A stretch of 53,037 nucleotides of DNA from an uncultured Rhodobiaceae bacterium (GTDB lineage Bacteria; Pseudomonadota; Alphaproteobacteria; Parvibaculales; Parvibaculaceae), in NCBI GenBank assembly GCA_913057645.1, contig CAJXOU010000014.1, positions 1-53,037 on the forward strand. The letters are read 5' to 3'. Below the pieces are notes generated by a model, which saw only the letters and a list, made by a program, of their open reading frames with translations, was not told where the DNA came from and did no database searches. Shown here piece after piece: positions 6,488-9,201 of the stretch. Made by a program: the position numbers and the translations under genes. The first letter of the stretch is position 1, and each line of letters starts with the position of its first letter.

Positions 6488-7102
6488 ATGTCCGGCGAAC
6501 TGAATTCCGAAGAAGCGCTCCGCACCGTCTATCCGGACCCCGGACAGACCAGGGGCAAGGTTCTGCCGATGCTCGACCCTCATGCGCGCAGTTTCATCGG
6601 CCTCGCGCCCTTTCTCTGCATCGGCACGGCGCGCCCGGACGGTCTCGGCGACGTCTCGCCCCGCGGCGGCGAGCCGGGCTTCGTCCATGTGCTGGACGAC
6701 ACCCATCTCGCCATGCCGGACCGGCCCGGCAACAACCTGATCGATACGCTCTCGAACATCGCCCTGTCCCCCTCCGTCGGGCTCCTCTTCTTTGTGCCGG
6801 GCTTTGAGGAAATGCTGCGCGTGAACGGCGTCGCGAAAACGGTCACCGACCCGGAAATGATGGAGCGCTTCACCGTGGACGGGAAAAAGCCCCGCTCCGT
6901 CATGCTGATCGAGGTGCGGGAGGTCTTTTTCCACTGCACCAAGGCGCTGAAACGTTCCGGTCTCTGGGACGCCTCGAAACACGTCCCGCGCGAGACGATG
7001 CCGAGCTTCGGCCAGATCGTTCGCGACCAGATGAAGCTGCCCGTCGCCGCCGACCTGATCGACACCGCGCTCGAGGACGACGCGAAAAAGAACCTTTACT
7101 GA
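6488..7102 (+). CDS. PPOX-type FMN-dependent flavoprotein
   Basis: This 204-residue protein of the pyridoxamine-5'-phosphate-oxidase-like split-barrel fold resembles the DR2398/MSMEG_1061 group of FMN-binding proteins. Visible family features are LGDVSPRGGEPGFVHVLDDTHLAMPDRPGNN (flavin-site region), IALSPSVGLLFFVPGFEE and the C-terminal FFHCTKALKRSGLWD. Such proteins bind FMN and reduce or oxidise small molecules; the substrate is unknown. The start at 6488 follows a GGAGGGG sequence. It diverges from hslV and converges on another, unrelated-subgroup PPOX protein 10 bases downstream. Confidence 0.88.
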   Translation: MSGELNSEEALRTVYPDPGQTRGKVLPMLDPHARSFIGLAPFLCIGTARPDGLGDVSPRGGEPGFVHVLDDTHLAMPDRPGNNLIDTLSNIALSPSVGLLFFVPGFEEMLRVNGVAKTVTDPEMMERFTVDGKKPRSVMLIEVREVFFHCTKALKRSGLWDASKHVPRETMPSFGQIVRDQMKLPVAADLIDTALEDDAKKNLY

Positions 7103-7112
7103 GGGCTTTTCC

Positions 7113-7643
7113 TCACCCGGCCAGGTCGAACGCGCCGGGATCGCCGCCAAGTTCCCGGACCTGGTCTTCGAGCGCACGGATGCGGGTTTCGAGCCGCGCG
7201 AAGGCGGGCGTAAGGGTGGCGGCGTCCCAGCGCGGCAGGATATGGCTCGGGCAGTTCATGTCCCATTCGTCGATCTCGATGAGGATCGCGCGCTCGACCC
7301 GGCCGCGATAGGCGGGGTCGGCGAGCGAGCGGGCAAGGTCCGGATCGTCGGTGACGGCCCGCGCCCGGCCGCGGATCTTCACCCGCCGCCGCGTCGGATA
7401 GTCGATCAGGAAAAGGAACGCCTGCGGGTTCTCGGCCAGGTGCCCGAGGGTCACATATTGCTGGTTGCCCGCGAAATCGGCAAAGCCGAGCGTTGCCTCA
7501 TCCATGACCTTGAGGAAGCCCCTGGGGCCGCCCCGGTGCTGGATATAGGGCCGGCCCGCCGCATTGGCGGTCCCCAGGTAGAAATGGTCGCGCTCGGCGA
7601 TGAACTGCGCGAGGTCGGGGGTAAGGCGGGTCTGCCAGGCCAT
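7113..7643 (-). CDS. Pyridoxamine 5'-phosphate oxidase-family protein
   Basis: The 176-residue split-barrel protein carries DHFYLGTANAAGRPYIQHRGG, followed by GFLKVMDEATLGFADFAGNQQYVTLGHLAENPQAFLFLIDY and RRRVKIRGRARAV, the classic order of a PNPOx-like FMN-binding barrel. A C-terminal helix (LETRIRALEDQVRELG) may be a short coiled coil. The family is broad and mostly uncharacterised; true PdxH activity is unlikely because the PdxH C-terminal signature is absent. It converges on the neighbouring PPOX gene. Confidence 0.87.
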   Translation of the reverse strand: MAWQTRLTPDLAQFIAERDHFYLGTANAAGRPYIQHRGGPRGFLKVMDEATLGFADFAGNQQYVTLGHLAENPQAFLFLIDYPTRRRVKIRGRARAVTDDPDLARSLADPAYRGRVERAILIEIDEWDMNCPSHILPRWDAATLTPAFARLETRIRALEDQVRELGGDPGAFDLAG

Positions 7644-8010
7644 GCGGGCGCTCCATCGTCGGCATTGAGGGTTCCATATATGGAGCCGGGAGACCGCGGG
7701 CGCCAGCCCATGGAAGATTCTACATCTGGTGGTACAGATGACTCCGAATACCAGAAGAGACAGACGCTTTTCATTTGAATCAATAGTTTAGGACTTGTCC
7801 CGCAAGAGGATTCGGAGCAACTTAAAGTATTGGATGAGAAGCGCTCCAGAATATTGGTTAACGTACTGTAAGTAATTGTGATTCAATCTGAATCACCACT
7901 TGAAGGAGAACGGGCGCCGGGGCGTCGGCTTTGCGCTGGTCCACCGCCCGCCCGCCTGATAAAAGCGGCCCGCCAACCGGCCGTTTTGAGCCCGAACCGG
8001 AAACCGAACA
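7644..8010. other. AT-rich intergenic region with clustered GANTC sites
   Basis: This 367-base stretch lies between the divergent PPOX gene and hisB, and its middle part (about 7700-7900) is clearly richer in A+T than its surroundings. It contains six GANTC sites (7716, 7740, 7777, 7809, 7880, 7890), the target of the cell-cycle methyltransferase CcrM. It also holds a CATCTG-N6-CAGATG dyad at 7723-7740 and a perfect 8-3-8 palindrome at 7878-7896. No convincing gene is seen. It probably carries the promoters for both flanking genes. Confidence 0.6.
7878..7896. promoter_or_regulatory. Perfect 8-3-8 palindrome upstream of hisB, containing two GANTC sites
   Basis: The sequence GTGATTCA-ATC-TGAATCAC is a perfect inverted repeat. 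Each arm includes one GANTC (GATTC at 7880, GAATC at 7890). It lies 115 bases before the hisB start, in promoter position. It could be a repressor or activator operator whose binding is affected by CcrM methylation. I do not recognise the regulator. Confidence 0.5.
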
Positions 8011-8622
8011 ATGAAGACCGAGAGCGAAAGCCGCACCGCGACCGTCGAACGCAAGACGAAGGAGACCAGTGTTTCCGTCTCGCTCGATCTCGACGGCAAT
8101 GGCGACTATGACGTCGATACCGGGATCGGCTTTCTCGACCACATGCTGGAGCAGCTTTCCCGCCACTCGCTGATGGACCTGAAGGTTCGCGCAAAGGGCG
8201 ATCTGCATATCGATTTCCACCACACGACGGAAGACACCGGCATCGTGATCGGCGAGGCCGTGCGCCAGGCGCTGGGCGATTTCAAGGGTATCCGCCGCTA
8301 CGCGACCTCGGTGATCCCGATGGACGAAACCTGCACCCGCGTCTCGATCGACGTGTCGCAGCGCCCCTATCTCGTCTGGAAGGTGAACTTCACGAAGCCG
8401 AAGCTCGGCGACATGGACACCGAACTCTTCAAGGAGTGGTTCCAGGCCTTCGCGCAGAATGCGGGCATCACGTTGCACATCGAGAACATGTACGGCGAGA
8501 ACAATCACCATATCGTCGAAAGCTGCTTCAAGGGCCTTGCCCGCGCGCTTCGCGAGGCGGTGGAGATCGACCCGCGAACCTCCGGCCGCGTTCCCTCGAC
8601 CAAGGGCGTCCTCGGCACCTGA
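8011..8622 (+). CDS. hisB: Imidazoleglycerol-phosphate dehydratase
   Basis: HisB (203 residues, monofunctional form without the phosphatase domain) removes water from imidazoleglycerol phosphate, the sixth step of histidine synthesis. The manganese-site motifs are all visible: [48 protein letters not shown], and [26 protein letters not shown]. It is the first gene of the his cluster and sits downstream of an AT-rich regulatory gap. The ATG at 8011 matches the family N terminus. Confidence 0.98.
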
Positions 8623-8709: not shown

Positions 8710-9201
8710 ATGCGCATCTATACGGTTCACGAGCTTCCCGGCGCGCCGCTCGACGGCGCGGGGATCGTGCTGGTGAAGGAGGGTTTCTCCTTTCCGGCCT
8801 TCGCCTTCTCATGGGCGTGGCTTCTCTGGCACCGGCTCTGGATTGCGTTCTGTGTCTGGCTCGGCCTCACCGCCGCGCTCTCGTTCCTGATGCAAATGGC
8901 GTTCGGCGCGGGCGCGGCGATGGCCTGTTCTCTGGCGCTGCAATTCCTGCTTGGCACGGAAGCGAACGACATCCGCCGCTGGACGCTCGCCCGCAAGGGC
9001 TATCGCGAGCTGGGTGTCACCGGTGGCGGCAGCCTCGAGGAAGCGGAACGCAACTTCTTCGCGAAGTGGGATCGTCCGCTCGATGTCGAAAAGGTGCGGC
9101 CGGTGACGGCACCGGTCTGGCCGCGCCCCGCGCCCGCGCGGACCGCCGGCGACAGCGAGGTCTTCGGCCTCTTCCCGCAAGGTCCGAAGACGGAGAGCTG
9201 A
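8710..9201 (+). CDS. DUF2628 membrane protein
   Basis: The 163-residue protein has an N-terminal [11 protein letters not shown] start, two to three hydrophobic segments (roughly residues 25-90, including [23 protein letters not shown] and a following hydrophobic stretch), and a soluble tail. DUF2628 proteins in this position between hisB and hisH are common in alphaproteobacteria; their function is unknown. [16 protein letters not shown] is the family's conserved C-terminal stretch. It ends six bases before hisH and is probably in the his operon. Confidence 0.85.

Follow-up and report, generated by a model that had tools for sequence, protein, structure and literature searches.

The window analysed here is a stretch of 53,037 bp in which the gap at 7644–8010 separates a PNPOx-domain gene (7113–7643, minus strand) from a gene at 8011–8622 that was confirmed as hisB, with HisB identities to Parvibaculum records of 94% (L082), 92% (L083) and 87% (L084). 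No second copy of the gap was found in the genome, and no tRNA was found in the region. The features of the gap and of the gene that follows it are listed below.

7716–7744, no strand: two GANTC sites (7716 and 7740), upstream of the conserved block and apparently recent
7766–7901, no strand: conserved block, mean column identity 0.711 with two single-base gaps across 22 Parvibaculum loci
7775–7783, no strand: TTGAATCAA palindrome, surrounding the best conserved GANTC (7777; 19 of 22 loci)
7809–7813, no strand: GANTC site, present in 6 of 22 loci
7835–7838, plus strand: TGAG, 17 bp before GGTTAACG; over 22 loci, three of its four columns do not vary
7856–7872, no strand: GGTTAACG-N5-TAAG, a degenerate CtrA-type site, with GGTTAACG in 22 of 22 aligned loci
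7878–7896, no strand: palindrome GTGATTCA-ATC-TGAATCAC, carrying the GANTC at 7880 (11 of 22 loci) and 7890 (8 of 22)
7929–7964, plus strand: hisB-proximal stretch GCTGG ... CTGATAAAA, identity 0.746, promoter-like by reading
8011–8622, plus strand: hisB, imidazoleglycerol-phosphate dehydratase

The preliminary description of this DNA had reported GANTC at 7716, 7740, 7777, 7809, 7880 and 7890, and all six starts proved exact. Six GANTC in 179 bp exceed chance: the segment that carries them (40% GC) averages 1.19 GANTC when shuffled, and a single one of 10,000 dinucleotide shuffles gets to six, while for the whole gap the shuffle mean is 1.57 and 24 of 10,000 reach that number. The window as a whole contains 47 GANTC (0.89/kb) versus 319 expected from shuffles, and avoidance of the motif is known in CcrM-bearing Alphaproteobacteria (PMC3973325). 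We counted 2,293 GANTC (1.56/kb) in a non-random own-genome sample of 1,474,083 of 3,752,067 bases, which includes the window and consists mostly of the longest contigs. The hisB gap is the densest 179-bp GANTC span of this sample; no second span holds six, and a single other one reaches five. The latter lies at L207 5326–5489 (own contig C18), within a long minus-strand frame that is TonB-dependent receptor-like by eye. AT-rich windows were compared within the first 453-kb sample of the own genome, with the hisB gap excluded: 60 overlapping 179-bp windows with a GC content below 0.45 average 1.07 GANTC (maximum 3), and 254 windows of 179 bp with a GC content of 0.45–0.50 average 0.63 (maximum 4). 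Thus, the cluster stands above AT-rich DNA of the same genome by shuffles, windows and genome ranking alike. The earlier expectation of about one site per several hundred bases is right for the local composition and generous for the genome overall.

For the comparison within the genus, 27 genomes including the own one yielded 23 loci that have 400 bp or more upstream of hisB, after removal of G020 and G022 (no hisB), G021 (no locus) and L017 (no upstream sequence). One of the 23, L020, lacks the block; it was excluded by eye from the 22-row alignment and retained in the counts over 23 loci, and all figures given as 22 of 22 refer to loci picked because they align. In the 300 bp before hisB, the 23 Parvibaculum loci contain 8.12 GANTC/kb versus 0.52/kb in their remaining sequence, a 15.5-fold ratio that partly reflects the usual difference between gap and gene because that remainder is largely coding; two loci have no GANTC in these 300 bp. 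The sister genera, counted apart (L018, L019 and L029–L032; n = 6), have 6.11/kb before hisB versus 1.33/kb elsewhere (4.6-fold), and the other Alphaproteobacteria (n = 70) have 1.81/kb versus 1.60/kb (1.1-fold), with none in 42 of the 70. This outgroup was drawn from 74 loci (L088–L161, within the best 80) by excluding L103 and three loci with less than 400 bp upstream, and its 1.1-fold ratio at the same place is a fairer control than Parvibaculum's own ratio. Rather than being lost in relatives, GANTC enrichment thus holds across the genus, weakens in the family and is not found in the other Alphaproteobacteria.

Four of the six sites fall inside the conserved block and two outside it. Over 22 rows of 141 bp, the block contains 50 GANTC, compared with 12.4 (s.d. 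3.4, maximum 23) in 500 shuffles, and seven other motifs of equal base content occur 3–22 times in the same rows. At least one GANTC lies within the block in 20 of the 22 aligned loci, the other two rows being without any. The two sites outside the block, 7716 and 7740, are both missing in the nearest relative (L004); by our reading of the alignment, 7716 reappears in L007, and 7740 in none among the rows listed. The non-conservation of these two sites and the general over-representation of intergenic GANTC in Alphaproteobacteria (PMC3973325) are what chance clustering in an AT-rich gap would have in its favor, but the shuffles, the AT-rich windows, the genome ranking, the conservation among species and the outgroup control all speak against it. 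We hold chance to be a highly improbable explanation of the cluster as a whole; for the four block sites it is very unlikely, whereas 7716 and 7740 may be due to it.

Column identity is 0.56 in the upstream flank of the block (7721–7765) and 0.426 in the downstream flank (7902–7928). The third codon positions of hisB, however, reach 0.776, a value that the block average does not exceed, so that its mean identity alone is no sign of constraint. What does show constraint is the invariance of its cores and the near-absence of gaps. Invariant across the 22 rows are GGTTAACG (7856–7863), AAG (7870–7872), TG (7877–7878) and scattered single columns, and the cores inside the block keep a fixed spacing in these loci. 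Across the 22 aligned loci, GGTTAACG sits about 130–170 bases upstream of hisB and, by our own reading of the loci, stays put while the upstream neighbor gene varies between species. The hisB-proximal stretch at 7929–7964 is kept also in loci without the block (rows L018–L020). A scan of 7600–8100 for the sigma-70 consensus, which says little in this bacterial group, returned no match. A small conserved open reading frame in the block was rejected, as every frame is interrupted in at least 19 of the 22 rows.

The maintained length of the block would also suit a small RNA of the cell cycle encoded near the origin, whose promoter or body the block would form. Such an RNA would be unrelated to hisB expression and comparable to CcnA, which at the Caulobacter origin is flanked by CtrA boxes (PMC8959179). 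However, RNAalifold gives 0 pairs on either strand of the 22 rows, and there is no Rfam match at the gathering score, with chance-level matches below it; on these two results a structured RNA in the block was rejected. Moreover, no plus-strand terminator was predicted, and one weak minus-strand terminator lies at 7966–7983. We consider such an RNA quite improbable.

The best conserved part of the block, absent from the preliminary description, is GGTTAACG-N5-TAAG. The full CtrA motif is TTAA-N7-TTAA (PMC4287350), and, as in CtrA-controlled promoters, perfect sites of this kind are present before hisB, at a corresponding place matched by eye, in G028 and L103 (TTAAGCCCTTGTTAA) and in G036 (TTAACCTCTTGTTAA). 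Unlike those promoters, Parvibaculum keeps an intact half-site with a degenerate second half, and the own gap contains GGTTAA and no TTAA-N6..8-TTAA. Within 300 bp before hisB, TTAACC is found on one strand in 22 of the 23 Parvibaculum loci; TTAA reaches 9.42/kb before hisB versus 0.16/kb elsewhere in the 23 loci, and its density in the own-genome sample is 0.29/kb. The g2 loci L018 and L019 have no TTAA at the site. We found one match each to GTTAACG-N5-TAAG in 11 of 14 genomes, located before hisB in seven (G000, G001, G013, G016, G019, G024 and G028) and elsewhere in four (G006, G007, G032 and G035); the reversed control gives 0–6 matches per genome. P. lavamentivorans has been placed in a Caulobacter-like CtrA group (PMC2877005), and that paper makes no mention of hisB. 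In one open-access paper found for CtrA together with hisB in Alphaproteobacteria, the passages concern a plasmid name.

The preliminary description had further pointed to a perfect palindrome with two GANTC in its arms. GTGATTCA-ATC-TGAATCAC is indeed present at 7878–7896 and occurs a single time in the genome. As a conserved operator it is unsupported, since conservation of the dyad is no higher than in shuffled controls. For the palindrome TTGANTCAA at 7777, symmetry is kept above all 500 shuffles (87.5% versus 81.5% of cells), with four cells altered on both sides; one slid control scores higher on covariation but with fewer paired cells. Among the 19 loci that have the GANTC at 7777, the center base is A in 13, T in five and G in one.

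All nine genomes examined encode a RAMA-domain (CcrM-type) protein and GcrA, both scoring above the cut-off. The motif for activation by GcrA is YGAKTCK, and in Brevundimonas subvibrioides no extended preference was found (PMC7987155). This Caulobacter motif is matched by none of the six own sites and by 1 of the 50 block sites; among the 41 GANTC elsewhere in the window, eight match it. The proposal of the preliminary description that clustered CcrM sites mark a GcrA/CcrM promoter is partly supported: the conserved GANTC, the encoded methylase and GcrA, and a make-up like that of the ccrM region agree with it, whereas the lack of YGAKTCK among the six sites, the position of 7716 and 7740 outside the block and the non-conserved dyad of the palindrome do not. 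Caulobacter CcrM/GcrA promoters (ctrA P1, mipZ and podJ; PMC3667746) likewise have promoter GANTC conserved among relatives, together with an encoded CcrM-type protein and GcrA, and differ from the hisB region in the absence of YGAKTCK from its six sites. Caulobacter genes with conserved promoter GANTC are more often misregulated without CcrM (PMC3973325). Several GANTC per promoter are also a feature of MucR-shielded clusters, an example being the CCNA_00169 promoter, which has four (PMC5172544). No paper that treats GANTC and hisB together, and no expression, methylation or binding measurements for this region, turned up in the open-access papers searched.

Most of the block sites (31 of 50) read TGA(A/T)TCA, and therefore another protein may read them. 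The block could then be the operator of a different hisB regulator that recognizes TGA(A/T)TCA and GGTTAACG, with GANTC merely contained in its site. This would fit the location of all three TGANTCA of the window in the hisB gap, the lack of YGAKTCK among the six sites and the fixed spacing between the invariant cores. Against it, TTGAWTCAA is also found at ccrM, a cell-cycle gene, and the GANTC of the sister genera differ in place and flank (for example, ATGAGTCCA in G028, L029–L032 and L103), a shift that is expected if GANTC itself matters. We regard a different regulator as unlikely, though deserving of serious attention.

As an internal comparison we used the region before ccrM, a gene assigned by its RAMA domain and DPPY motif. 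Six to seven GANTC lie within 179 bp before ccrM in 6 of 6 genomes (own, G024, G013, G001, G028 and G033). The own ccrM region (L228 1238–1400, contig C112, outside the 1.47-Mb sample) has seven within 179 bp, together with TTAACCTCTTGATTCAA, and is denser than the hisB gap; by our own reading, six of its sites precede the gene and one lies in the first codons. TTAACCTCTTGATTCAA is found before ccrM in four Parvibaculum genomes. TTGAWTCAA, of which each genome has 4–7 copies, lies directly before ccrM in 4 of 4 genomes and before hisB in 3 of 4, G001 (row L016) having TCGATTCAA there instead. In G028, ccrM is preceded by TTAAGCCCTTGATTC, part of which, TTAAGCCCTTG, recurs before hisB, so that the two regions of this genome share it. 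Within the same genome, the ccrM and hisB regions are thus alike in their six to seven GANTC per 179 bp, their TTAAC-type site and, in four Parvibaculum genomes, TTGATTCAA. They differ in that the TTAA site before ccrM is directly joined to GATTCAA (TTAACCTCTTGATTCAA) and in that the ccrM sites extend into the first codons (start placed by eye), whereas the hisB block stops about 110 bp before the start. In Brucella, the ccrM promoter is bound by CtrA (PMC2877005); in Caulobacter, methylation probably controls the ccrM gene itself (PMC3973325). In its make-up, the hisB region therefore resembles a region that in other bacteria is part of the CtrA/CcrM circuit. Of the explanations weighed here we favor, at even odds, a CtrA/CcrM-type control region upstream of hisB that is peculiar to the family of Parvibaculum. 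An old conserved stretch built like the ccrM control region suggests that this family may tie hisB to the cell cycle.

The chromosomal position of hisB was read in relatives that have both genes on one contig, hisB and hemE being on different contigs in the own genome. The distance is 14–18 kb in seven genomes (G001, G013, G024, G028, G032, G033 and G035). dnaA lies 109–121 kb from hisB in six (G001, G024, G028, G032, G033 and G035) and 1.37 Mb away on contig 1 of G013, a difference that suggests rearrangement. G024, G028 and G013 were scanned (240, 140 and 480 kb, respectively) with DnaA-box and parS patterns. The densest DnaA-box window adjoins hemE in all three, with four boxes in G024 (from 532297), five in G028 (from 3605291) and five in G013 (from 1388310), each upstream of the gene, and is likely to be the replication origin of the family. 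A pair of parS-like sites is located further out from these windows. Within 600 bp upstream of hisB, the only DnaA box found is a weak one in G013, with none in G024 or G028. In GC skew, hisB lies inside a flat minimum of G028; the minimum of G013 is near 1.28–1.31 Mb, 60–90 kb from hisB, with a four-box DnaA window there, and G024 has no minimum at hemE or hisB. Skew agrees with hemE in G028 only and cannot settle the origin.

The proximity to hemE in seven genomes and the skew minimum of G028 would accord with a role of the block itself as the replication origin, or as some other element of that region that serves chromosome maintenance, as would its CtrA-type sites in AT-rich DNA, which are found also at the Caulobacter origin (PMC8959179). 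The DnaA-box clusters, however, adjoin hemE in three of three genomes and are lacking before hisB. By DnaA-box position an origin at the block is unlikely, with GC skew indecisive, and we rate an origin or maintenance element as highly improbable. The Caulobacter origin with CcnA (PMC8959179) resembles the hisB region in having CtrA-type sites not far from hemE and differs from it in that the hisB block has no DnaA-box cluster or predicted RNA structure.

Under the CtrA/CcrM reading of the gap, CtrA would bind GGTTAACG-N5-TAAG at 7856–7872 and CcrM would methylate the GANTC sites that flank it. The region would be replicated early, because in those relatives whose contigs allow a reading, hemE, which marks the likely origin side, is 14–18 kb away. 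Passage of the replication fork would leave the GANTC hemimethylated and might thereby change the activity of a promoter feeding hisB and the genes behind it. What the sequences show is the sites, how they are conserved and spaced, and how they resemble those before ccrM; action of CtrA and CcrM here, transcription into hisB and the timing are inferred from this. The broader version, in which the origin-near histidine operon of the whole family would be under CtrA and CcrM with ccrM-like control and timed by replication of its own locus, is possible, if doubtful. hisB would most likely be a new target rather than represent a new kind of system. The sequence test with ccrM as internal control could lead to further targets of the circuit in unstudied Alphaproteobacteria. 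If the proposal is true, one alphaproteobacterial family, unlike the others sampled, has coupled a core biosynthetic operon to its cell cycle, and this would be a clear case of regulatory rewiring in which the sites can be mutated one by one.

Additionally, two converging PNPOx-domain genes occupy 6488–7643 of the window, between hslV and hisB, and a DUF2628 gene (8710–9201) separates hisB from the his genes that follow. In G028, seven GANTC and four TTAA are found within 250 bp (L189, about 2500–2750) between two plus-strand frames that by eye resemble mutS and glnD.
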